14,413 bases of DNA from Lachnospiraceae bacterium (lineage in GTDB: Bacteria > Bacillota > Clostridia > Lachnospirales > Lachnospiraceae): positions 1 to 14,413 of the forward strand of contig JAJQCU010000279.1 of NCBI GenBank assembly GCA_021202575.1, read 5' to 3'. The position numbers were made by a program, and so were the translations under genes. Below, piece after piece: positions 69 to 13,134 of this stretch (position 1 is its first letter; each line of letters starts with the position of its first letter). The notes under the pieces are model-generated. The model had not been told where the DNA came from. It did not search any database and was given only the letters and a program-made list of their open reading frames with translations.

Positions 69-97
69 TTGACAATTCTCCTCCGTTATACTACAAT
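69..97 (+). promoter_or_regulatory. Sigma-A type promoter of the ATP-grasp operon
   Basis: A perfect -35 box TTGACA (69-74) is followed after exactly 17 bases by TACAAT (92-97), one mismatch from the consensus -10. Transcription would begin near 103-105. This is the only convincing promoter upstream of the five + strand genes, and those genes are packed without room for others, so it probably drives all of them. The 68 bases to its left are AT-rich with several T runs and show no gene. Confidence 0.75.
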
Positions 98-103
98 AAC
101 GAG

Positions 104-145
104 AGACAAAGACGCCTGCGGAGGGCAGCTTTGTCTTTTTGTTTT
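104..145 (+). terminator. Terminator-like hairpin at the 5' end of the operon transcript
   Basis: AGACAAAG (104-111) pairs with CTTTGTCT (129-136). An inner helix CTGC (116-119) / GCAG (125-128) closes a GGAGG loop, and ACGC is bulged on the 5' side. The stem runs straight into TTTTT, G, TTTT. This has the layout of an intrinsic terminator, but it lies right at the predicted transcription start and before the first gene. It could be an attenuator, a 5' stabilising hairpin, or a terminator for readthrough from the left. No protein or ligand binding site is recognisable. Confidence 0.55.
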
Positions 146-166
146 ATATAGAAAGGACTGCGAACC

Positions 167-1486
167 ATGAATAATTTAGATCTTCTGGACAGAACCGACA
201 CGATCAACGGCCTTTTAGCCCGTTACGGCGTCAAATTCGGCATCTACAAAAACGGCACGTTTAAGGAGCAGCTTTTCCCCTTTGACGCCATTCCCAGAGT
301 CATTGAGAAGGAGGAATTCGCTTATCTGGAGCGGGGGCTGAAGCAGAGAGTCGCCGCGCTGAATTTATTTCTCAAGGATATTTATAATGAAAAAAAGATC
401 GTGAAGGACGGCGTCGTCCCGGAGGATTTTGTCTATGCCGCCAGCGGCTATCTGGTGCCCTGCGAGGGCGTCACTCCGCCGAAGGATGTTTTTTCCCATA
501 TTTCAGGAATCGATCTGGTGCTTGGCAAGGACGGCGTCTGGTACATACTGGAGGATAACCTGCGGGTGCCCTCCGGCGCTTCCTACCCCATGATCGCCAG
601 AGAGCTTTGCAGACGGGCCAGCCCCCGCACCTTCAACGAGACGGCCATCGAGGACAACCGCAATTACGCCCGGCTTTTAAAGCATACCCTGGATTATGTG
701 AATACCGGGGGACTGAGCGTGGTGATGACGCCGGGACGTTACAATGCCGCCTACTTTGAGCACTCCTACCTGGCGGAGCAGATGCGGGTGCCGCTTGTGA
801 CCTACAGCGACCTGGAGGTGGACAACGATTACCCGTATTTCAAGTGATACGCCGGCAGAAAAGAGCGGGCAGGCGCGGTCTACCGCCGTATTTCCGACGA
901 ATACATGGATCCCATGAATTTCAACCCGGAATCGGTGATCGGCGTTCCCCATATTTTTGACGTATACCGAAAGGGCCATGTGGCGCTCTTAAACGCTCCC
1001 GGCAACGGCATCGCCGACGACAAGGGAATATATTATTTCGTACCGAAAATGATCAAATACTATCTCGGCGAGGAGCCCATTCTGCACAACGCGCCCACCT
1101 ATCTTCCCTTCTACGAGGAGGATATGAAATATGTGCTGGAGAAGTTCGATACCCTGGTCTTAAAGGACGTGGCGGAGGCCGGCGGCTACGGCGTCGTCTT
1201 TGGCAGCAAGATGACCAGAGAGCAGAAGGAGCAGTTTATCGCCATGCTGAAGGCCGAGCCGAGACGCTTTATCGCGCAGGAGGTCATTGATTTCTGCGAT
1301 ATTCCCATTCAGGACAGGGGACAGATCGTGGAGCGCAAGGCGGACTTAAGAGCGTTCGTACTGACCGCGGAGGAGCCCGTGGTATGGAAGAGCGGGCTGA
1401 CCAGATTTTCCAGAAATCCGGATTCCTTTATTGTAAATTCTTCACAGGGAGGAGGCTTTAAAGACACATGGGTACTAAGTCAGTAA
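167..1486 (+). pseudogene. Circularly permuted ATP-grasp ligase, interrupted by an in-frame TGA
   Basis: The reading frame codes for a circularly permuted ATP-grasp protein (DUF404/DUF407 type, COG2308) of normal length, about 439 codons. TGA at 845-847 splits it into a 226-residue N-terminal part and a C-terminal part in the same frame. Family signatures lie on both sides: EDNLRVPSG around residues 127-135 before the stop, and YRRISDEYMDP, GIADDKG, AGGYGVVFG, KADLRAF and a terminal NSSQGGGFKDTWVL after it. The codons just after the stop still read as family sequence, so this looks like one substitution rather than two genes. The first internal ATG after the stop (905) has no ribosome site. 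AAAGGA (152-157) serves the ATG at 167. The family is predicted to form amide bonds using ATP; the substrate is unknown. The end overlaps the next gene by 19 bases. Confidence 0.88.
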
Positions 1487-2139
1487 TCAACACGGACCGT
1501 CTGTACTGGCTCGGACGCTACTCCGAGCGGGTCTACACCACTTTAAAACTTTTTGGAAAGAGCTTCGACGAGCTCATCGAGCAGATGACAGAGGCGGATT
1601 ATTCCAAATTCTGCACCACCCTCGAAATTCCGAATATTTATACCGACAAGGACGATTTTATCGCGCGCTACGCCTTTGACCTGACGGATCCCAACTCCAT
1701 CATTTCCAATCTGACAAGAGCCTACGACAACGCCATTGAGCTGAGAGAGGAAATCGGCAGCGAGACTCTCTCCTATATCCAGATGGCTCTTTACAGCATG
1801 CAGAGGGCAAAGGAGGACCAGGCGCCTGCCATTGAGTTTCAGAGCGTGACCGATGACATCCTGGCCTTCTGGGGGATCGTGGACGACCAGATCGACGATG
1901 AAAATACCCGCAACATCATCAAGGTAGGGAAACGGGTGGAGCGGCTGGATTTGTACACCCGCCTGCACATGGGACGCGTGGACATCAACCGGGAGGTACA
2001 GCGCCTGGCAGGGCGGATTGACCGTTGCTCCCTGCGCTACAGAACGCAGAGTATCATTGAGCTTCTGGACGCGGTCCGGGCTCCGGAGCTGGATTATCCG
2101 GCGATCTTAAAATCCGTGGAGAGCATTCTGGAGGTTTAG
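1468..2139 (+). CDS. Alpha-E domain protein (DUF403 family)
   Basis: This 223-residue all-helical protein matches the alpha-E family (COG2307), the usual partner of circularly permuted ATP-grasp ligases. Recognisable parts are the opening RLYWLGRYSERV (residues 11-22), a central segment with LTDPNSI and RAYDNAIELREEI, and the basic VGKRVERLDLYTRLHMGR segment near residues 152-169. Family members are often around 300 residues, so this is a compact form. GGGAGGAGG (1447-1455) lies 12 bases before the ATG, inside the end of the ATP-grasp gene; the 19-base overlap implies translational coupling. No enzymatic role is established for the family. A scaffold or partner for the ligase is an inference from gene neighbourhood. 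Confidence 0.85.
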   Translation: MGTKSVINTDRLYWLGRYSERVYTTLKLFGKSFDELIEQMTEADYSKFCTTLEIPNIYTDKDDFIARYAFDLTDPNSIISNLTRAYDNAIELREEIGSETLSYIQMALYSMQRAKEDQAPAIEFQSVTDDILAFWGIVDDQIDDENTRNIIKVGKRVERLDLYTRLHMGRVDINREVQRLAGRIDRCSLRYRTQSIIELLDAVRAPELDYPAILKSVESILEV

Positions 2140-2142
2140 CCG

Positions 2143-2937
2143 GTGGAGACTCTGTCTTTTCGCTATCATCTGAGCATCTGTTTTGACGCGCCCGTTCACG
2201 ACCATCACTTTACTCTGCGTTGTTTTCCCATTTCAGATGAACGGCAGCGCATCGACAGATTACAGATTACCATCTATCCAAATGAGTTCTTTTCGGACAG
2301 CTTTGACAGCTTTGGCAATCGCTGTATTGTCGGCCGGGCCGGGCAGCCCCACACCCGCTTCAGCGCGGATGTGACAGGGGATGCCGTCACCGGCCTTTCT
2401 GAGCGTGTTCCGGAGGGAAACCCCTGGCGGGAGCATTTGTTCCGCCAGAAGACCCGCCTCACCTGGCCCGATGAGGAGCTGCTTTCCTTCGCGGATTCTG
2501 TACCCACCTGGCCCAGCGCGCTGGATACGGCCAAAGCTGTCATGGAAGCTCTGGGAAAAGAAATCACCTACACGCCCGGCGCTACAAACATAGACACCAC
2601 AGCTGCAGAAGCCTTTTCTCTCAGGAAGGGCGTCTGCCAGGATTACTCCCACATTATGCTGTCAGTTCTGCGTGAGAAAAAAATCATGTCCCGATACGTG
2701 GTAGGAATGCTCATGGGCGAGGGTTTAAGCCACGCTTGGGTAGAGGTCAAGGAGGGGGAATTCTGGTACGGTTTCGACCCCACCAACCAGCTTCTGGTCA
2801 CGGATCAGCACATCAAGATTTCCCATGGCCGGGACTACTGCGACTGCCGGATCAATCAGGGACATTTCTACGGCCTTGGAAAGCAAACCCAGGAAATATC
2901 CGTCCTGGTGCAGAGAAAGGAAGCACAAAGCGCATGA
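2143..2937 (+). CDS. Transglutaminase-like cysteine protease family protein
   Basis: This 264-residue protein has an N-terminal beta-rich domain of the bacterial transglutaminase-N type, starting SFRYHLSICFDAPV, followed by a transglutaminase-like core. The catalytic triad is visible: Cys in RKGVCQDYSHIML, His in SHAWVEV and Asp in YGFDPTNQ. It has no signal peptide, so it should act in the cytoplasm. Members beside ATP-grasp/alpha-E genes are thought to be peptidases or amidases acting on the ligase product, but no substrate is known. Translation starts at GTG 2143, with GGAGGT (2130-2135) seven bases upstream inside the alpha-E gene. Its TGA stop overlaps the next ATG as ATGA, indicating coupling. 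Confidence 0.88.
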   Translation: METLSFRYHLSICFDAPVHDHHFTLRCFPISDERQRIDRLQITIYPNEFFSDSFDSFGNRCIVGRAGQPHTRFSADVTGDAVTGLSERVPEGNPWREHLFRQKTRLTWPDEELLSFADSVPTWPSALDTAKAVMEALGKEITYTPGATNIDTTAAEAFSLRKGVCQDYSHIMLSVLREKKIMSRYVVGMLMGEGLSHAWVEVKEGEFWYGFDPTNQLLVTDQHIKISHGRDYCDCRINQGHFYGLGKQTQEISVLVQRKEAQSA

Positions 2938-3866
2938 TACAGGACATTGTGTCCATCCGCCTGCCGGTGGATGAGACCTATCATATACAGAAAAATTCCA
3001 TCTCCCACGGAAGCGGAAAACGAATCTGTGTGGTCACCGGCATCCACGGGGACGAGCTGGAGGGGCAGTATGTCTGCTTTCTCCTGGCTCAGAAGCTGCT
3101 GTCCCAGATAGAAAAGCTGCACGGCACCGTGGATATCTACCCGGCCGCCAATCCCCTGGGGATCGATTCCATCAACCGGGGACTGCCCGGCTTTGACCTG
3201 GATATGAACCGCACCTTTCCCGGCAGTGATACCGGCGACATGGTGGAGTTCACCGCCATGAAGCTGGTGGAGGATTTAAAAGGCGCCGACCTGGTTTTTG
3301 ACATCCATGCCAGCAATATTTATCTGACAGAGATTCCCCAGATCCGCATCAATGAAAAAAACGCGGACCAGCTGGTGCCTCTGGCCCGGCTCTCCAACGT
3401 GGACCTGATCTGGGTTCACGGAAATTCCACGGTGCTGGAATCCACCCTCGCCTATTCCCTGAACAGCCGGGGGACTCCCTGCCTGGTGGCGGAGATGGGC
3501 GTGGGAATGCGGCTGACGGAAAAATACGGCCGCCAGTTCTGCGATGGAATTTTCAGCCTGATGCAGCATCTGGATATGTGGGACGGCGATGTTCCCCCTG
3601 TCAGAGAGCCCCTGATCTGCGATGACCCGGACGAAGTGGTCTTTCTGAACGCGCCCACCTCCGGCATGTTCATGAAGACAAAGGAGCACGGCTCCTGGGT
3701 TGGCAAGGGCGAGACCGTGGGCTATATCTTTGATCCCCTCCGGGGTGAAATCCGTGAATATATCAACGCGGATAAAAGCGGCCTGCTCTTTACCATCCGG
3801 GAATATCCCCTGGTGGCCGAGGGCTCTCTGATGGGCCGGATTTTAGCGAGGGAGGCCAACCGATGA
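2934..3866 (+). CDS. AstE/aspartoacylase-like zinc hydrolase (M14-related)
   Basis: This 310-residue protein belongs to the succinylglutamate desuccinylase/aspartoacylase group of zinc carboxypeptidase-like enzymes, which cleave N-acyl or peptide-like amide bonds. The metal site is complete: GIHGDE supplies H38 and E41, and FDIHAS supplies H125. LDMNRTFPG (residues 89-97) is the conserved Asn-Arg substrate loop, and E187 in VAEMGVGM is the likely general base. The last 80 residues form the small beta domain usual in AstE-like proteins. There is no signal peptide. The frame stays open upstream to 2736, but ATG 2934 is chosen because it overlaps the previous stop as ATGA, has AAAGGAAG upstream, and the family fold starts directly after it. 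The substrate is unknown; context suggests it acts on the product of the upstream ligase. Confidence 0.85.
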   Translation: MIQDIVSIRLPVDETYHIQKNSISHGSGKRICVVTGIHGDELEGQYVCFLLAQKLLSQIEKLHGTVDIYPAANPLGIDSINRGLPGFDLDMNRTFPGSDTGDMVEFTAMKLVEDLKGADLVFDIHASNIYLTEIPQIRINEKNADQLVPLARLSNVDLIWVHGNSTVLESTLAYSLNSRGTPCLVAEMGVGMRLTEKYGRQFCDGIFSLMQHLDMWDGDVPPVREPLICDDPDEVVFLNAPTSGMFMKTKEHGSWVGKGETVGYIFDPLRGEIREYINADKSGLLFTIREYPLVAEGSLMGRILAREANR

Positions 3867-4804
3867 AAGAAAGCGTCATATACAGCACCTCCTCCCTTTA
3901 CCGGGATGATTTCCGGGTGAAGGCCTATACCTTTGGCCGGGGAGAGAAGGCGCTCTGCGTTGTGGGAGCCATGCGCGGCAACGAGTATCAGCAGATTTAT
4001 ATCTGCTCCCAGCTGATGCGTTATTTCAGGCAGTGGGAGCGGGATGGGCGCTTTGTCGCCGGCAAACAGGTCATGCTCATCCCTTCCGTCAACCCCAGCT
4101 CCATGAACATTGGCAAGCGCTTCTGGGCCATCGACAACACGGATATCAACCGAATGTTTCCCGGCTACAGCCTGGGGGAGACCACTCAGCGCATCGCGGC
4201 GGGGGTTTTTGAGGTTATCAATAAGTATCAGAGCGGCATTCAGCTGACCTCCTTTTATATGCCCGGGGACTTCTCTCCCCATGTGCGCATGATGCGCACC
4301 GGCTATGAGAACGTGGAAAAAGCCAGGGATTTCGGCTTCCCCTACATTGTGGTCCGCGAGCCCCGGCCTTACGATACCACAACCCTGAACTACAACCTGC
4401 AGATCTGGGAGACGGACGCCTACAGCCTGTATTCCAACACCACCAGCCGCATCGATCCGCAGAGCGCCGCAAAGGTCATCGAAGGAATTGAGCGCTTTAT
4501 GATTCTGGGCGGCATGCTGACGGGAGAAGCCGCCGCAGCCTGCGTCCAGCCCCGGATTTTTGAATATGGCGACCTGATTTCCCTGCGCACCACCCAGGCG
4601 GGCCTGTATCACCGGCTGGCGGAGGCGGACACCCACGTAAAAAAAGATACCCCCGTTGCCGAAATCTACGACCCCGGCAGTGGGGATATCCTGGAAACTC
4701 TGTATGCTCCTTCGGACGGCGTCATCTTTTTCCAGCACAATGACCCGCTTGTATACGCTTACACCGCCGCGGTGAAGCTTCTGGCCGATCTGCCGCAGAT
4801 TTGA
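3863..4804 (+). CDS. AstE-like paralogue lacking canonical zinc ligands
   Basis: This 313-residue protein is collinear with the preceding AstE-like enzyme (LCVVGAMRGNE against ICVVTGIHGDE; NTDINRMFPG against LDMNRTFPG) and has a similar C-terminal beta domain. The metal site differs. The first His is Arg (R38), while E41 is kept, and the region of the second zinc His reads IQLTSFYMP, with Thr129 where His is expected. E183 in the WETDAYS segment may occupy the general-base position. It may therefore be a non-catalytic partner, a substrate-binding subunit, or an enzyme using other residues. It starts at an ATGA overlap with GAGGGAGG (3848-3855) seven bases upstream, so it is probably made together with its partner. 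It ends the operon at the convergent boundary. Confidence 0.8.
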   Translation: MKESVIYSTSSLYRDDFRVKAYTFGRGEKALCVVGAMRGNEYQQIYICSQLMRYFRQWERDGRFVAGKQVMLIPSVNPSSMNIGKRFWAIDNTDINRMFPGYSLGETTQRIAAGVFEVINKYQSGIQLTSFYMPGDFSPHVRMMRTGYENVEKARDFGFPYIVVREPRPYDTTTLNYNLQIWETDAYSLYSNTTSRIDPQSAAKVIEGIERFMILGGMLTGEAAAACVQPRIFEYGDLISLRTTQAGLYHRLAEADTHVKKDTPVAEIYDPGSGDILETLYAPSDGVIFFQHNDPLVYAYTAAVKLLADLPQI

Positions 4805-4868: not shown

Positions 4869-5132
4869 TCACGTATCAATCCGATGCTCCAGCAGGTCCA
4901 CCAGGGCCGCTAAAGCTTCCTCCTCGTCCGCGCCCTCGCAGATCAGTTCAATCTCATCATTTCCTCTGACACAGGCGCCGAGAACGCTGAGAACGCTCTT
5001 GGCGTTGGCGGTATAGTTTTTAAACCGGAATGTGATTTTGGACTGGTACTGCATGGCCAGCCGGCACAAATCCCCCGCAGGGCGCAGGTGCAGCCCGATC
5101 AGGCTGTTGACCACCACTTTCTGAGATACCAC
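4869..5132 (-). CDS. ptsH: HPr phosphocarrier protein
   Basis: HPr carries phosphate from enzyme I to the sugar-specific IIA proteins of the phosphotransferase system. The chosen start is the GTG at 5132, because GAAGGAGGG sits five bases upstream. This gives an 87-residue protein, the normal HPr length, and places the active histidine exactly at position 15 (GLHLRPA) and the regulatory serine exactly at position 46 (AKS). Longer starts at 5156 or 5204 would add a basic tail and put the ribosome site inside the gene. His15 rules out a Crh-like protein. The residue after His15 is Leu rather than the commoner Ala. The gene is 119 bases downstream of cdaR. The symbol assumes this is the main HPr; a second copy elsewhere is possible. 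Confidence 0.88.
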   Translation of the reverse strand: MVSQKVVVNSLIGLHLRPAGDLCRLAMQYQSKITFRFKNYTANAKSVLSVLGACVRGNDEIELICEGADEEEALAALVDLLEHRIDT

Positions 5133-5151
5133 ATTGACCCTCCTTCTCTTT

Positions 5152-5182
5152 TTCATTATATACTGATCATTTTCAACCCTCA
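5152..5182 (-). promoter_or_regulatory. Possible promoter of the HPr gene
   Basis: Reading the minus strand, TATAAT lies about 20 bases upstream of the HPr GTG and just before the AGAAGGAGG ribosome site. No good TTGACA box is present at 16-18 bases, so the site is weak. The leader would be very short. The alternative is readthrough from cdaR. Confidence 0.3.
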
Positions 5183-5251
5183 GATCAGAGGTTCCGTTCC
5201 GCATATATGGGCCAGTACCCTGCCCTCCCGGAGAATTCTCCCCGGGATTTC

Positions 5252-6568
5252 TTAGTCCTCCACGATTTCTTCTGTCACAAGAATGGCAATATCACTTCCC
5301 GAGACAATCTCCACAGCTTCCGATTCGATGGTGTACTCCGCGGGGATGTCGTAGGTTCTGCCGTCCACAAGCGAGGTCAGATCCTCATCCTCCATCCAGG
5401 CCTCCACATCGATGGATACCGCGATATCCGAGGCGCTCACTTCCTCCACGTCCGCCTGCAGACCGGACACCACCACTGAAGCCTGCACCTCATCCGCGAT
5501 CTGCACAATATACCCCTCCGGCACATTGGAAATCGCGATCCGGTCGGTATTCAGAGTAATCTCAGCCTCGTAAACCTCCTCCACAGGCTGCGTCACCGTA
5601 ATCACGCCGCTTTCGCCCGAATCCGCGCGCGACACGCCGCTGGGCAGATAATCATCAATATCGATCTCAAATACCACATCCTCCGTGGCATCGGTCACAA
5701 TGTATTCCTCCCCGGAGACCACAATCTCCGTGACATTATCCACCACGCCGCTCTTGCCCGCCAGCGTAATCTCCCTCGCGCTTGCGGTCATTTCGCCGCT
5801 CAGCAGATAGCCTGACGCGGGAGTTACCTCCACCTCAAACACAAGAGGAACTGTGCTGGTCTTGAGCACTTCCACCGTAACCCGCACCCGGCTGGAGCCG
5901 AGAGTCAGCCGATCCTGTGAAATCTCATTGCCATCCGAATCATACAGTACGATATCCGCGTAAGTCACCACATTCTCTGTGGCGTCCTCCAGCACCACGG
6001 AGGCCCTCGCCGTGGCAATGCTACTGACAATGCTCTCCGGTCCGCTGACTGACAGCTGGTTCTGCTCGATGGTGCTGCCCGAGATGATATAGCCATCCGC
6101 AGCGCTGCCGGTCACATCGGCGGTCAGGCGGATGTATCTGTCCATCTTATCCTCCACCTCCAGCTCCAGGACGGAGGAGCTTGCGGAAAAAGTCACGTTT
6201 CCCTCATACTTGGTGCAGGTAAAGGTCAAATCTACCGTGCCGTCCAGGCGCATTTTGGAGAAATCCGCCGTCACCTCGATGTCGCTGTCCGTGATATCAT
6301 CTATGATCGTCCGGGAAGCGGACACCGTGACCGTGCGAACCACATCAGAGTTGTTCAACACAGCGTATACCTGCCCGTTCTCCTCAAGGACCTCCGTATT
6401 CAGAAAGGTCACCTCCACATTGGTGAAACGGGTGCTGGTCACAGGGTTCTCAATGCTGTAGGCTACAGCCCACAGAATAACAGCACAGACAATCGAAAAC
6501 AGCTTGAGATACCAGTTGTGCAGAAGCTTATCCCTCAGTCTTTTCAGTTGATCCCTGCTGTTTTTCAT
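5252..6568 (-). CDS. cdaR: YbbR-domain protein, CdaA regulator
   Basis: This 438-residue protein has a short basic cytoplasmic start, one membrane helix (about residues 21-38) and then a long extracytoplasmic region of repeated beta-rich YbbR domains, rich in Val, Thr, Asp and Glu with few Lys. In Bacilli, CdaR binds the membrane diadenylate cyclase CdaA and modulates c-di-AMP output. The pairing here is tight: its ATG lies inside the end of cdaA, overlapping by 41 bases, with GGGAGGAAAGGAAG just upstream. In many Bacilli glmM follows; here an HPr gene follows instead. After the stop, a hairpin around the perfect palindrome GGAGAATTCTCC (5230-5241) has no T run, so it is not a standard terminator. 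Confidence 0.88.
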   Translation of the reverse strand: MKNSRDQLKRLRDKLLHNWYLKLFSIVCAVILWAVAYSIENPVTSTRFTNVEVTFLNTEVLEENGQVYAVLNNSDVVRTVTVSASRTIIDDITDSDIEVTADFSKMRLDGTVDLTFTCTKYEGNVTFSASSSVLELEVEDKMDRYIRLTADVTGSAADGYIISGSTIEQNQLSVSGPESIVSSIATARASVVLEDATENVVTYADIVLYDSDGNEISQDRLTLGSSRVRVTVEVLKTSTVPLVFEVEVTPASGYLLSGEMTASAREITLAGKSGVVDNVTEIVVSGEEYIVTDATEDVVFEIDIDDYLPSGVSRADSGESGVITVTQPVEEVYEAEITLNTDRIAISNVPEGYIVQIADEVQASVVVSGLQADVEEVSASDIAVSIDVEAWMEDEDLTSLVDGRTYDIPAEYTIESEAVEIVSGSDIAILVTEEIVED

Positions 6569-7451
6569 TCTGCTTCCTTTCCTCCCATTTGCTCCTGAGC
6601 CAGTCCCGTCTTCTGGGCTTTTCCTCCCCGGGCTTATCCTCCTTCTGCCGGAAGGAGGACAGCTGCTCCAACAGCTGGTCGGGGCTCAGTCCTCTGGACA
6701 GCACTCCCTCTCTGGCCACCGTAATCTGTCCCGTCTCCTCGCTGACCACGATCACAAAGGCGTCCGTATTCTCACTGGCCCCCAGCGCCGCCCTGGGGCG
6801 GGTTCCCAGCTGCTTGCTGACCGACATATCCTCAGACAGGGGCAGATAACAGGGGGCCGCCACCACCCTGTCCCCGCTGATCACCACCGCGCCGTCGTGC
6901 AGCGGCGTATTATGCTCAAATATATTGACCAGAAGCTGCATGCTGACCACCGCGTCGATCTCAATACCAGTCTCCACATAATCGGTCAGCTTCTGATAAT
7001 TCTCCAGCAAAATCAGCGCACCTGTCTTATCCCCGCTCATGACCGTGCAGGCCTTCACAATACTCTGCATGGTCTTATCGGAAAACTTTCCCTCCGGGTT
7101 CATGCGGTCTCCCAGATTCATCAGCTGAAAAATATTATTTCTGCCCAGCTCCTCCAGCATCCTGCGAAGCTCCGGCTGAAAAATCACCACAATCGCCATC
7201 AGGGCCACGCTGACCACATTTTTGGCGACCCACATAATGGCTGTCATGTCAAGAAGCTCAGCAACCAACAAAAAGAGCCCGATCACAGCGATGCCCCTGA
7301 GCAGCACAAAGGTTCTGGTTGACTGTATCCAGCCCAGAATCTTATAGATCAGCCAGGCAAGAATCAGCATCTCCAGAACGTCGATAACCGTTAAATTATA
7401 CTTAACGAAGCTGTCCGAAATGTAGCTCCAAAATGTAGTAATATACTGCAT
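6528..7451 (-). CDS. cdaA: Membrane diadenylate cyclase CdaA with altered RHR motif
   Basis: CdaA joins two ATP molecules into c-di-AMP, a second messenger for potassium, osmotic and cell wall control. The 307-residue protein has three N-terminal membrane helices (about residues 23-40, 47-66 and 72-92), then the DAC domain with PELRR, the catalytic DGA motif at 186-188 (LHDGAVV), and a charged C-terminal tail. The second family signature, normally RHR within GTRHRAALG, reads R218-P219-R220: codon 219 is CCC (6795-6797), one base from the His codon CAC. Everything else looks intact. ATG 7451 gives the standard N-terminus; the ribosome site is weak (GGGAAAAGAAG). The gene overlaps cdaR by 41 bases. 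Whether it is active as read here is uncertain. Confidence 0.9.
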   Translation of the reverse strand: MQYITTFWSYISDSFVKYNLTVIDVLEMLILAWLIYKILGWIQSTRTFVLLRGIAVIGLFLLVAELLDMTAIMWVAKNVVSVALMAIVVIFQPELRRMLEELGRNNIFQLMNLGDRMNPEGKFSDKTMQSIVKACTVMSGDKTGALILLENYQKLTDYVETGIEIDAVVSMQLLVNIFEHNTPLHDGAVVISGDRVVAAPCYLPLSEDMSVSKQLGTRPRAALGASENTDAFVIVVSEETGQITVAREGVLSRGLSPDQLLEQLSSFRQKEDKPGEEKPRRRDWLRSKWEERKQNEKQQGSTEKTEG

Positions 7452-9698: not shown

Positions 9699-11948
9699 TT
9701 ATGTATATTCCTCCATTCCCTGGGCCGCGCATTCTTTAATTCTCAGGTCCAGAGAGGTGTATCTTTCGTGCTGGCTGACGTTCTGAATCATCTCCTGCAC
9801 GCAGCGCAAGCTTCCCAGAATGACCACGCAGCTTTTTGCCCGGGTCACGCCGGTGTAGAGCAGATTCCGGTTAAAAAGCAGCCTCGGGCCGCCCAAAAGC
9901 GGCATCACCACCGCCGGATACTCGCTGCCCTGAGACTTATGTATAGTGATGGCGTAGGCCAGATCCAGCTCCTCCAGGCGGTCGAAGGGGTATGTCACTC
10001 TCTTCCCCTCCTCAAATTCCACCACCATCTGCTCCGCCGGCTCCCGGATTTCCAGGATACGCCCCATATCTCCGTTAAAAACGCCCATTCCCTTGTCCAC
10101 AGGAATATTGTATTTTCCCAGAATCTCCCACTCCGCCTGATAGTTATTTTTCGTCTGCATCACCTTGTCCCCCTCCCGGAACAGGGTGGCGCCCTCCTGG
10201 TGCTCCTTTTTGCGCGGATCCGGCGGGTTCATGTACTGCTGCAGAATCCGGTTGAGCTGTTCCACCCCCAAGGCACCCTTGCGCATGGGGGTCAGCACCT
10301 GAATCTCCAGCGGGGAGGCGTTCACGTACTTCGGCAGCATTTGAGTGATCAGCTGCAGCATGTGCTTATAAATGACGTTGGGGTCCTTGCGCTCCAGCAG
10401 GAAAAAGTCCCTGCTCTTGTTGTTGAAGTCCAGAGGCTCCCCCTGATTGATCCGGTGGGCGTTCACCACGATATCGCTGGTCTGCGCCTGCCGGAAAATA
10501 TGGCTCAGCGTCACCACCGGAAAGCAGCCGCTTCGGATCAGGTCTCTCAGTACCTGCCCCGGCCCCACGCTGGGAAGCTGGTCCACATCCCCCACCAGAA
10601 TCAGCCGGGTGCCCGCCGCGATGGCCTGAAGCAGAGAGGAAAACAGATGAATGTCCACCATGGACATCTCATCAATAATCACCACGTCCGCTTCCAGCGG
10701 ATGATCCCGGTTTCTCTCAAAGCGGGCTCCCCTGTCGTTTTCCTCCGGCGCGCCGTTGACCTCCAGCAGACGATGAATAGTCCTTGCCTCACAGCCCGTG
10801 GCCTCCGTCATGCGTTTGGCGGCCCGCCCCGTAGGCGCCGCCAGTAAAATATCCAGTCCCTGCCTCTCAAAGTACCTCAGAATCATATTGACTGTGGTGG
10901 TCTTGCCCGTGCCCGGGCCGCCGGATAAAATAAACAGGCCGTTTTCGATGCTGGCAAGCACCGCCTTTCTCTGCATTTCATCCAGCTCAATGGAGAATTC
11001 CGCGGCGATGGCGTCGATCTCCTTTTGCAGTGCGGCTCCCGCGGAAGGATCCGTCAGCTCCACCGCCCCGTTCAGGTCATGGAGCATCCGGGCGCAGTTT
11101 AATTCCAGATAATAATATCCGGCCGCGTATACGAGAGTCTGCTCTCCCTGCCTTTTGATCACCAGCTTTTTGTCCATCATCATGTTGGACAATACCGGCT
11201 CAATGGATGAGGCGGCAACCTCCAAAAGCTGCTGCGCCCTGGACACAAGCAGCTCCATCGGCAGATAGACATGGCCCTCCTGCTGAGCCTGAGTCAGCAC
11301 ATACAGCACGCCGCTGGCAATGCGATAGTCGGAATCCGTATGAATCCCCGCCCTGGCCGCGATCTCATCCGCCATCTTAAAGCCGATGCCGCTGATATCC
11401 TCCGCCAGACGATAGGGATTGGTCTGCATCACCTGATAGATCTCATTCTGATAGGTCTGATAAATTTTCACAGCCAGGGCATTGCTGATGCCGTATTGCT
11501 GCAGATAGACCAGGGCCGAGCGCAGCTCTTTTTTTTCCTCCATCTGTGCGGAAATATCCTGGGCCATGCGCTCACTGATGCCCTTAATCTCCGCCAGGCG
11601 CTCCGGCTCCTCCTCCATGATGCGAAAGGAGTCATCGCCGAATTTACTCACAATCCGATCCGCTAAAGCCGCCCCAATCCCCTTGACGGCGCCGCTGGCC
11701 AGATACCGCCGCATACTCTCCTTGTCCTCGGGAGGGATGACCTGCCAGGAGGAAATTTTAAACTGGCTGCCGTACACCGGATGGGAAACGCCCTCCCCCC
11801 TGGCCTCGATGGTTTCCCCCACAGTCAGGCCCTTCAGCGTTCCGACGCAGGTGATCTCATCGCCCTCACTGACCAGATTCATCACTGTATATCCATTTTC
11901 ACCGTTCTGGTAAATGATATGCTCCACATATCCCCTGATGACATCCAT
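9699..11948 (-). CDS. recD2: RecD2-type ATP-dependent DNA helicase
   Basis: RecD2 is a 5'-3' superfamily 1B helicase that works without RecBC and takes part in repair and replication fork handling. The 749-residue protein has an N-terminal domain starting VIRGYVEHIIYQNGENGYTV, helix-hairpin-helix repeats (about residues 87-205), Walker A GGPGTGKT (343-350), APTGRAAKR, Walker B IIDEMSMVD, GDVDQLPSVG, the motif IV arginine in SHIFRQA, IHKSQGSEYP and the C-terminal NLLYTGVTRAK. All motifs look intact. The frame remains open for 69 codons upstream of ATG 11948, but the family normally begins here and the upstream part is low-complexity spacer. This ATG has no obvious ribosome site. A GGAGGAG lies about 43 bases further up, in a potentially folded leader. 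Confidence 0.92.
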   Translation of the reverse strand: MDVIRGYVEHIIYQNGENGYTVMNLVSEGDEITCVGTLKGLTVGETIEARGEGVSHPVYGSQFKISSWQVIPPEDKESMRRYLASGAVKGIGAALADRIVSKFGDDSFRIMEEEPERLAEIKGISERMAQDISAQMEEKKELRSALVYLQQYGISNALAVKIYQTYQNEIYQVMQTNPYRLAEDISGIGFKMADEIAARAGIHTDSDYRIASGVLYVLTQAQQEGHVYLPMELLVSRAQQLLEVAASSIEPVLSNMMMDKKLVIKRQGEQTLVYAAGYYYLELNCARMLHDLNGAVELTDPSAGAALQKEIDAIAAEFSIELDEMQRKAVLASIENGLFILSGGPGTGKTTTVNMILRYFERQGLDILLAAPTGRAAKRMTEATGCEARTIHRLLEVNGAPEENDRGARFERNRDHPLEADVVIIDEMSMVDIHLFSSLLQAIAAGTRLILVGDVDQLPSVGPGQVLRDLIRSGCFPVVTLSHIFRQAQTSDIVVNAHRINQGEPLDFNNKSRDFFLLERKDPNVIYKHMLQLITQMLPKYVNASPLEIQVLTPMRKGALGVEQLNRILQQYMNPPDPRKKEHQEGATLFREGDKVMQTKNNYQAEWEILGKYNIPVDKGMGVFNGDMGRILEIREPAEQMVVEFEEGKRVTYPFDRLEELDLAYAITIHKSQGSEYPAVVMPLLGGPRLLFNRNLLYTGVTRAKSCVVILGSLRCVQEMIQNVSQHERYTSLDLRIKECAAQGMEEYT

Positions 11949-12138
11949 GCGTTCACAAAACAGGGGCTGTCCGACAGGCTGTATCCAGGCTTCTCCTCCT
12001 AAGGAACTGTCACGAATACAGGCTGCCGGTGACAGCCCCTTTATCCTTTTTTTATATTCTTCTGAACGGGCAGCCCCCTGATGCTTTGCCTGAAAAGCTC
12101 CAGCGCAATGCTGTTCTTCACACAATTCCCGCCCGTTC
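11949..12138 (-). other. mreB-recD2 spacer with two inverted-repeat-bounded segments
   Basis: Segment A (11963-12039, 77 bases) is bounded by GGGGCTGTC (11963-11971) and GACAGCCCC (12031-12039). It contains a nested pair CTGTAT (11979-11984) / ATACAG (12016-12021). Its minus-strand transcript carries GGAGGAG in the inner loop. Segment B (12064-12138, 75 bases) is bounded by GAACGGGC (12064-12071) and GCCCGTTC (12131-12138), directly next to the mreB stop. It holds a nested hairpin: TTGC+CTG (12086-12092) pairs with CAG+GCAA (12101-12108) with one bulged base, extended by GC/GC past one mismatch. On the + strand, segment A is followed by T7 (12047-12053). These may be an RNA leader for recD2, a 3' structure of the mreB transcript, or small repeat elements. 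They match no riboswitch family that I know. Confidence 0.6.
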
Positions 12139-13134
12139 CTAATTGTCCTCGCCAAAACCGGAAAGTGATTCGATATATTTTCCCGTGCCGATCGCCACGC
12201 AGGTCATGGGATCCTCCGCCGTGACCGTGTTGATGCCCGTCCTGTCATGAATCAGCTCCTCCAGCCCCCGCAGCATGGCGCCGCCGCCGGTCAGCACGAT
12301 TCCGCGGTCTAAAATATCCGCCGCCAGCTCCGGCGGCGTTTTCTCCAGGACACTGTGAATGGGCTCCACGATCTGATTGACCGTATCCCGCAGGGCCTCC
12401 TCCGTCTCATAGGAAGAAACAGAAATAGTCTTGGGAAGTCCCGTCACCAGATCCCTGCCCCTGACATCCATAAATTCCTCCTCACCGCTGCGCCAGCAGG
12501 TGCCCACTTTGATCTTTAAATCCTCAGCGCTCCTGTCGCCCACCAGCAGATTGTGCTTCTTCCTCAGATATCTGACCAGCGCCTCATCGAAATCATCCCC
12601 GGCCACCTTGATGGACGCGCTGACCACGCTGCTGCCAAGAGAAATAACGGCAATATCAGAGGTGCCGCCGCCGATATCCACAATCAGGTTGCCGCAGGGC
12701 CTGGAAATATCAATGCCCGCGCCGATAGCGGCCGCGATGGGCTCCTCAATAATATAGACCTCTCTGGCGCCCGCCTGATACGCGGGGTCCTCCACCGCCT
12801 TTTTTTCCACCGCTGTTACTCGGCTGGGTAGACAGACCGCGATGCGGGGTTTGCGGAAGGTCCTGTGCCCGATGGCCTTTCTGATGAAGTGCTCTATCAT
12901 CTGCTCCGTCACCCTGTAATCAGAAATCACGCCCTGGCGCAGAGGGCGGACCGCCACAATATTGCCCGGGGTGCGGCCAAGCATCAGGCGCGCGTTCTCC
13001 CCGATGGCCTTGATGGTATTGGTGTCTCTGTCAAACGCCACGACGCTGGGCTCCTTGAGCACCACGCCCTTCCCCTTGATATATACCAAAATACTCGCTG
13101 TACCTAAATCGATTCCGATATCACTATATGCCAC
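12139..13134 (-). CDS. mreB: MreB/Mbl family actin-like cell shape protein
   Basis: This protein polymerises under the membrane and guides elongation-phase peptidoglycan synthesis. The 331 residues show the actin-fold landmarks: phosphate-1 loop DLGTAS (residues 9-14), phosphate-2 loop DIGGGTSD (about 155-162), VAGDDFDEALVRY, VRGRDLVTGLPKT and the adenosine motif TGGGAML. At the usual VPSGVT site the sequence reads LPSRVT, with Arg at 105. Other bacteria vary there (Asn or Gly), so this is only a mild oddity. The start is GTG 13134 with AAGGAGG nine bases upstream. No mreC or mreD follows, so this is a detached paralogue, and mbl or another mreB-like name could be equally right. Confidence 0.9.
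   Translation of the reverse strand: MAYSDIGIDLGTASILVYIKGKGVVLKEPSVVAFDRDTNTIKAIGENARLMLGRTPGNIVAVRPLRQGVISDYRVTEQMIEHFIRKAIGHRTFRKPRIAVCLPSRVTAVEKKAVEDPAYQAGAREVYIIEEPIAAAIGAGIDISRPCGNLIVDIGGGTSDIAVISLGSSVVSASIKVAGDDFDEALVRYLRKKHNLLVGDRSAEDLKIKVGTCWRSGEEEFMDVRGRDLVTGLPKTISVSSYETEEALRDTVNQIVEPIHSVLEKTPPELAADILDRGIVLTGGGAMLRGLEELIHDRTGINTVTAEDPMTCVAIGTGKYIESLSGFGEDN

Follow-up and report, generated by a model that had tools for sequence, protein, structure and literature searches.

A short alpha-E cassette with an AstE-like pair in Lachnospiraceae: a putative nitrogen-limitation module behind a leader hairpin shared with nitrogen-assimilation genes

Introduction

Operons that combine a circularly permuted ATP-grasp ligase, an alpha-E protein and a transglutaminase-like protein have been discussed since at least 2009, and we know of no substrate or settled role for them. 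For the operon that also encodes Anbu, a tagging or peptide-synthesis role has been proposed, attributed to Iyer 2009 by PMC5666114 and PMC6376114. Reported links to nitrogen include the NtrC dependence of a DUF403/DUF407 cluster in Burkholderia cenocepacia (PMC5491218), the increase of Anbu in nitrogen-limited Pseudomonas putida (PMC5666114) and co-occurrence with urea genes in marine metagenomes (PMC3597751). Here, we describe a five-gene cassette of this kind, extended by two AstE-like genes (AST1 and AST2), in a 14,413-nucleotide (nt) stretch of Lachnospiraceae DNA (contig JAJQCU010000279.1 of assembly GCA_021202575.1), hereafter the window. The window is almost the whole of contig C356 of a single metagenome-assembled genome (MAG; 84 % complete, 427 contigs).

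ANTAR control of nitrogen genes is already known in other bacteria, where genes for P-II, ammonium transporters, and glutamine and glutamate synthases lie downstream of ANTAR targets (Ramesh 2012, PMC3369931). A hexaloop with A1 and G4 is the signature of these targets (PMC3369931, PMC8934654), and a single hexaloop has been argued to be the minimal ANTAR binding motif, while antitermination in vivo needed both hexaloops (PMC8934654). In the literature searched, we found no paper linking "circularly permuted ATP-grasp" to "succinylglutamate desuccinylase", and recognised neither a nitrogen regulon of Lachnospiraceae under ANTAR or leader control nor a single-hexaloop ANTAR element in that family linked to the cassette (the supplementary hit tables of PMC3369931 lay outside the scope).

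By sequence, the terminator hairpin in front of most cassettes of this kind also fronts operons for glutamine synthetase, P-II/AmtB, glutamate synthase, carbamoyl-phosphate synthase and amino-acid ATP-binding cassette (ABC) transporters. We give an even chance to the reading that the cassette is a nitrogen-limitation module that would ligate and hydrolyse an amide under putative ANTAR-type control.

Results

A promoter-proximal leader hairpin precedes the cassette

The features of the cassette in the window are as follows.

69..97, + strand: sigma-70-type promoter-like site, TTGACA-17-TACAAT, 11 of 12 matches
about 104..141, + strand: promoter-proximal terminator-like hairpin with a U-run (attenuator-like leader), from RNAfold
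167..1486, + strand: circularly permuted ATP-grasp ligase gene, TGA in frame at 845-847, PF14403/PF04174 on both pieces
1468..2139, + strand: alpha-E protein, short form of 223 amino acids (aa), PF04168, profile positions 7-192 of 294
2143..2937, + strand: transglutaminase-like cysteine hydrolase, GTG start at 2143, PF08379 and PF01841
2934..3866, + strand: AST1, AstE/DoeB-like zinc hydrolase, PF24827
3863..4804, + strand: AST2, AstE-fold pseudo-hydrolase, PF24827

The end of the ATP-grasp gene (1486) overlaps the alpha-E start (1468) by 19 nt, the end of alpha-E (2139) is separated from the transglutaminase GTG (2143) by 3 nt, and 4-nt ATGA overlaps join the transglutaminase gene to AST1 (2934-2937) and AST1 to AST2 (3863-3866). 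This is the arrangement of one promoter, three overlaps and one gap given in a preliminary description made from the window sequence alone, and Pfam bears out the gene identities proposed there (CP_ATPgrasp_2, Alpha-E, Bact_transglu_N with Transglut_core, and AstE_AspA_cat twice). Its operon reading stands as regards layout; to be added are the in-frame TGA at 845-847 and the hairpin at about 104-141, the latter not noted there. Of 16 promoter-like sites found across the window (shuffle mean 9.8, standard deviation 2.9), the one at 69-97 is the best, and the promoter-hairpin layout recurs in genus relatives. The hairpin, taken as 104-145, folds at -16.0 kcal/mol in RNAfold and has one match in each of six of nine genus genomes, just upstream of the ATP-grasp gene.

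In a wider set of loci, a single-rule scan places a hairpin at 60 of 79 cassette fronts and at 77 of the 505 starts of other genes there, and a promoter together with a hairpin at 47 of 79 compared with 12 of 505, where five of the 12 controls are linked ABC, C26 and ArAE-HAD genes. The 79 fronts include some genomes twice (e.g. L070 and L092, both from G157); some hairpin was obtained at 74 of them and 60 fall within the energy limit, L079 and L117 having been removed by hand besides. For the leader alignment, 46 of the 60 hairpins were used, to the exclusion of seven from the window's genus (the window's own included) and of L078, L102, L145, L153, L154, L158 and L190. In these 46 leaders, 10 of the 13 pairs of the terminator stem are changed on both sides, although terminator pairing alone is no test because the sequences were selected as hairpins. 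Five loci (L123, L147, L160, L161 and L191) carry two tandem leader hairpins. Upstream of the leader at L112, L115, L124, L130, L136 and L172, an inverted repeat resembling TTGTATTATTGTATACAA recurs across the -10 region and may be an operator.

The leader hairpin is shared with nitrogen-assimilation genes

A covariance model of the leader hairpin, R1, was searched against 36 genomes with 150 candidates scored per genome, and gave 82 matches in total. All 82 were judged, 71 through a fetched stretch (by Pfam, else by BLASTP to clusters) and 11 through an adjoining cassette. Matches precede a cassette or its remnant in 12 cases (two of them before an ABC-cassette unit), GSIII in 14, AmtB/P-II in 12, SBP3 ABC genes in seven, GSI with or without ANTAR in four, GltB or PyrG-GltB in four, and CarAB in two, so that 55 of the 82 lie before the cassette or before nitrogen-assimilation/ABC genes. 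Three more precede a CTP synthase gene, an amino-acid permease gene with one for a glutamine-synthetase-like ligase (L304, G054:C37), and a LamB/YcsF gene. The permease-ligase pair at L304 recalls gamma-glutamylation pathways for amines.

The link to transport is physical at several loci. At L076, L077, L121, L135, L144 and L146, genes for an ABC ATPase, SBP3, two permeases and a cytidylate-kinase-like protein run straight into the ATP-grasp gene, and at L156 the ABC unit likewise precedes it with one extra gene between. In all seven of these ABC-first units (L076 and L077 belonging to G060 and G135), R1 matches before the first ABC gene and has no match before the ATP-grasp gene; the E-values for L077, L121, L135, L144, L146 and L156 lie between 7e-7 and about 0.01 for a search of 1.6 Mb. 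The sole R1 match in the window's genome at E 0.001 (C1:7069-7115) precedes the same kind of set, in the order ABC ATPase, SBP3, permease, permease, cytidylate-kinase-like gene, and in G155 a weaker match (above E 0.001) lies before the ABC unit. At the level of the family, control by nitrogen status has good support; support is moderate for the window's own cassette, whose leader is a diverged form of the shared one.

A single hexaloop overlaps the terminator

The left arm of the terminator, GAAC-AAAGGC-GTTC, can fold as a four-pair stem with an A1/G4 hexaloop (P2), and this hairpin and the terminator are mutually exclusive. An A1/G4 hexaloop of the P2 kind that overlaps the terminator occurs in 34 of 60 cassette leaders and in 34 of 46 R1 matches, and G4 is present in 45 of these 46. 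P2 pairing is kept in 91.3 % of cells of the cassette set, compared with 82.6 % when shuffled and between 33 and 54 % when the positions are slid. For the first 46 R1 matches to be fetched, paired cells number 171 of 184, compared with a maximum of 159 in 2000 shuffles. A second, upstream hexaloop (P1) accompanies P2 in 6 of 60 cassette leaders, a count without a control. The leader is therefore not a classical dual-hexaloop element, given that P1 is not above chance (5 of 46 R1 matches, 3.7 expected from shuffles).

At least one ANTAR gene is present in 36 of 39 genomes. Among the 36 genomes searched with R1, the two without ANTAR belong to the four without an R1 match (post-hoc Fisher p=0.0095). 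An ANTAR gene lies next to GSI on C24 of the window's genome, and in G003, G036, G086 and G144 it follows GSI under an R1 leader.

Several observations weigh against a nitrogen-limitation module under ANTAR-type control. Nearly a third of the R1 matches (24 of 82) have no gene of the named kinds beside them. The leader in the window is a weak match to R1 (21 bits, E=0.012 in 58 kb) and lacks an A1/G4 hexaloop on a 4-bp stem. R1 finds nothing in the GSI-ANTAR stretch of the same genome at E up to 5, and G152 and G155 possess ANTAR with no R1 match at E 0.001. P1, as given above, is at chance level. G114 has no ANTAR gene, yet a promoter-proximal hairpin of another sequence fronts its cassette. 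AST pairs also occur without the ligase in the AST2 tree described below. Finally, SBP3 of an amino-acid ABC cluster is near only 12 of 77 cassette loci, which are not 12 independent events as several are close tree relatives, and is in the same run in eight. The rate in 18 genomes (101 SBP3-family matches in about 52.7 Mb, some being pieces of one gene) leads to an expectation of about two in the 0.96 Mb of cassette flanks.

Some of these points favor a leader that attenuates nitrogen genes through a regulator other than ANTAR, with the likeness to a hexaloop a by-product of conserved terminator sequence: P1 is not enriched, the loop bases of P2 double as bases of the terminator stem, the window's genus possesses an ANTAR gene and a cassette leader without the hexaloop, and G114 keeps a hairpin without ANTAR. 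This alternative has a substantial, if minority, share of our confidence, as it leaves unaccounted for the covariation of the P2 stem in two sets (cassette leaders and R1 matches), the near-invariant G4, and the ANTAR gene found behind GSI and the same leader in four genomes. The broader form of the ANTAR reading, which we put forward tentatively and at somewhat under an even chance, is that in Clostridia (Lachnospiraceae and relatives) a minimal single-hexaloop ANTAR attenuator just after the promoter would control GSIII, GSI, P-II/AmtB, GltB, CarAB and amino-acid ABC genes, with the cassette as a core nitrogen-salvage member in which the ligase of ATP-grasp and alpha-E would act together with the AstE pair, one active enzyme and one pseudo-enzyme, in place of Anbu.

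AST1 keeps a zinc-hydrolase site that AST2 has lost

Alpha-E keeps E20, R21, E158 and R159 in 46 of 46 sequences; its AlphaFold2 (AF2) model is all-helical with a predicted local distance difference test (pLDDT) score of 91.6, and has no significant fold match in the PDB. The transglutaminase triad of Cys165, His197 and Asp212 is present in 37 of 37. AST1 retains His38 in 44 of 46 sequences and Glu41, Asp123, His125, Arg138 and Glu187 in all 46, and so has the HxxE and distal His ligands and the catalytic Glu of AstE/AspA zinc hydrolases. AST2 does not: Arg38 replaces the zinc His in 20 of 20 sequences, the third-ligand His is lost (position 129 is Thr, Ala or Pro) and no Glu aligns with the catalytic Glu of AST1, while Glu41, Asn96-Arg97 and Arg142 are retained. 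The ligand and catalytic roles given for these residues are those of the AstE/AspA family. A ratio of nonsynonymous to synonymous substitution rates (dN/dS) of 0.04 indicates that AST2 is strongly conserved under purifying selection. Of the two AstE-like hydrolases in the preliminary description, then, AST1 keeps its zinc site, but AST2 is without zinc and catalytic residues; on residue conservation, AST1 looks like an intact zinc hydrolase, and AST2 is a pseudo-hydrolase that has been conserved. AST1 may thus act as the hydrolase with AST2 as a non-catalytic, carboxylate-binding partner.

The AF2 model of AST2 (mean pLDDT 85, residues 86-109 below 50) matches CphZ best, DoeB as well, and M14 carboxypeptidases weakly. 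DoeB and CphZ are also the closest solved relatives with a named activity for AST1 and AST2, acting on an N-acetyl amino acid and an isodipeptide, respectively. The best match being a cyanophycin-dipeptide hydrolase, together with the pairing of an ATP-grasp enzyme with an AstE-fold hydrolase, would suit a nitrogen reserve, in which a cyanophycin-like amide polymer or dipeptide is made in plenty and mobilised in shortage. We regard this as very unlikely, since the making and breaking genes stand under one leader and salvage therefore fits better than storage.

A proteasome-family gene (PF00227; Anbu or HslV) was found in none of 21 family genomes searched. In the other five genomes searched there are five PF00227 matches (open frames of 184-192 aa), all on other contigs or hundreds of kb away from alpha-E. 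The absence from the 21 genomes implies that another hydrolase must serve if the cassette is a tagging system, in which ATP-grasp and alpha-E would attach a peptide-like tag to a peptide or protein and the transglutaminase-like protease and AST1/AST2 would remove it, the AstE pair standing in Anbu's place. Such a role would follow the earlier tagging or peptide-synthesis proposal for the Anbu operon (PMC5666114, PMC6376114), and the weak M14 resemblance is in keeping with it. We nevertheless think it unlikely, as the link to amino-acid importers and to glutamine and ammonium genes suggests small nitrogen compounds, and as DoeB and CphZ act on such small substrates.

The ATP-grasp stop codon is recent or an assembly error

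The ATP-grasp gene of the window's MAG is interrupted by the TGA at 845-847. Six of eight other genus genomes have an ATP-grasp match without a stop, one of the six being partial at a contig start. Compared with G155, dN/dS of the ATP-grasp gene is 0.078 before the TGA and 0.017 after it, and lies between 0.017 and 0.13 for every cassette gene and both ATP-grasp pieces. Because these ratios are low in every piece, including that 3' of the TGA, the stop is either very recent or an assembly error.

The stop could instead mean that the operon of this genome is dead and that we are describing a decaying remnant. Cassette remnants in G019, G025, G037, G083, G094 and G124 attest to repeated loss in the family and give this view some force; however, the low dN/dS throughout and the occurrence of the stop in one MAG only speak against it, and we consider it quite possible while doubting it on balance. 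In three remnants, L084 (G094:C24), L085 (G025:C44) and L086 (G124:C305), the beginning of ATP-grasp abuts the end of AST2, a layout such as internal deletions of the middle would leave. The G094 remnant holds both ends in one 125-aa open frame and retains the leader hairpin (50.8 bits).

The AstE pair is a constant partner of the short alpha-E branch

The preliminary description had proposed counting the five-gene order in other genomes. Among the best 80 of at least 589 loci in named genomes, a sample biased to similarity with the window, order was counted in the 59 with at least 5.2 kb upstream of AST2; it is kept in 55 of them (a few with a split gene), rearranged in one (L101) and decayed in three (L108, L110 and L126). 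Of 71 loci, 63 show an overlap of precisely 19 nt between the ATP-grasp and alpha-E genes.

In a sample of 150 family genomes, alpha-E is present in 18, and 35 carry a total of 40 strong AST2 matches (over 200 bits). For 16 of the 18, alpha-E is directly followed by AST1 and AST2 on its contig, and in the other two (G076 and G114) the contig ends within 1.4 kb of alpha-E. Seen from alpha-E, the partnership proposed earlier thus holds for every one of the 16 genes not cut by a contig end. Seen from AST2, it is looser: the preliminary description would have counted a pair mostly found elsewhere against itself, and 24 of the 40 strong AST2 genes have no alpha-E neighbour on their contig, although a few of the 24 sit where a contig ends. 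Sampling 299 genomes across the phylum yields three short alpha-E genes, in the only three genomes with strong AST2 (G000, G405 and G451), and three long alpha-E genes with no AstE pair adjoining. These data support the AstE pair as a constant partner of the short alpha-E branch, as judged from genomic context.

A quick maximum-likelihood tree of 107 AST2 proteins, 82 labelled cassette and 25 labelled pair (at least three of the latter labels arising only from a contig start), was built without the duplicate loci L074 and L194-L198 and without sequences shorter than 290 aa. A group of 74 holds 70 cassette rows and a group of 23 holds 20 standalone rows, with at least nine switches between the two labels. 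One chromosomal slot, flanked by a DinG-like helicase gene on one side and a large purL-like gene on the other, holds the full cassette in L167 and the AST pair alone in L081, L176, L177 and L083. In L201 (G326), alpha-E and the transglutaminase are fused (633 aa) without an AstE pair, and in L202 (G451:C39) AST2 carries a C-terminal extension of about 200 aa resembling an S-adenosylmethionine-dependent methyltransferase.

The conserved order and the presence of ligase and hydrolases in one apparent transcription unit are also what the biosynthetic make-and-trim module of the preliminary description would predict, in which a dedicated amide or peptide product is shaped by AST1. This reading is compatible with the data but unproven, and we judge it improbable. 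Catalytic residues are confined to one AstE protein, and the genes that share the leader belong mostly to nitrogen assimilation, though 11 of 77 loci include in the cassette's run an ArAE/FUSC-HAD gene whose product may be an exporter.

Other neighbouring genes

Six of the 77 loci have a C26 gamma-glutamyl-hydrolase-type gene nearby. In the window itself, the operon converges on a PTS-HPr (HPr-family) gene at 4869-5204 on the - strand, whose listed open reading frame has an N-terminal extension. Further along the - strand are adjacent genes for YbbR (CdaR-like) and the diadenylate cyclase CdaA (5252-7451), and genes for the RecD2 helicase and an MreB/Mbl-like protein (9699-13134), whose listed frames overlap, the real RecD2 start probably being further in.

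Discussion

Our preferred reading of the cassette as a nitrogen-limitation module can be put as a sequence of proposed steps. When nitrogen is short, an ANTAR-type antiterminator would hold the left arm of the terminator as a hexaloop hairpin, so that transcription continues. The polar-amino-acid ABC system would bring in a nitrogen compound, which ATP-grasp and alpha-E would couple to a carrier through an amide bond. Cleavage of the conjugate to yield usable nitrogen would then fall to the transglutaminase-like protease and to AST1, partnered by a non-catalytic AST2 that binds carboxylates. The salvage chemistry is offered as a proposal. Of the preliminary description, the association of the AstE pair with the short alpha-E is supported; the second hydrolase finds no support in the residues of AST2, and nitrogen limitation had no place in it.

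If correct, this reading would give the cassette a testable job in nitrogen shortage, and suggest the growth condition, the reporter and the class of candidate substrates for such a test. The genomic evidence would indicate nitrogen limitation once again, in another bacterial group and with an unrelated regulator, and would add an importer and a hydrolase pair to the system.

Comparison with described systems places the cassette between several of them. The Rim/Rlo loci of Pseudomonas likewise join an ATP-grasp and a protease in one operon, to which rlo adds a transglutaminase-like protein, but theirs are a RimK-like ATP-grasp, a retropepsin protease and an inactive membrane transglutaminase (PMC12239564). 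DoeB (6twl, 6twm) and CphZ (8ein, 8eip) have in common with AST1 the HxxE...H zinc site and catalytic Glu, and with AST2 only the fold, AST2 being without the zinc ligands and catalytic Glu; identity is low for both, and AST2, unlike these enzymes, adjoins AST1 almost everywhere seen. Like the ANTAR target RNAs of EutV, NasR and AmiR, the leader has an A1/G4 hexaloop that excludes an intrinsic terminator, nitrogen genes downstream and an ANTAR gene in the genome (PMC3369931). It differs from classical targets in its single hexaloop and its one short attenuator right behind the promoter, with ANTAR binding as a prediction. Relative to the Anbu operon of proteobacteria and cyanobacteria, the cassette has a short alpha-E followed by the AstE active/pseudo pair, an ANTAR-like leader in place of NtrC and, across the 21 family genomes searched, no gene of the proteasome family, Anbu included. 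The two nevertheless share their first three genes in the same order, and the reported expression of the Anbu operon under nitrogen limitation (PMC5666114, PMC6376114, PMC5491218) parallels the role that we infer for the cassette.

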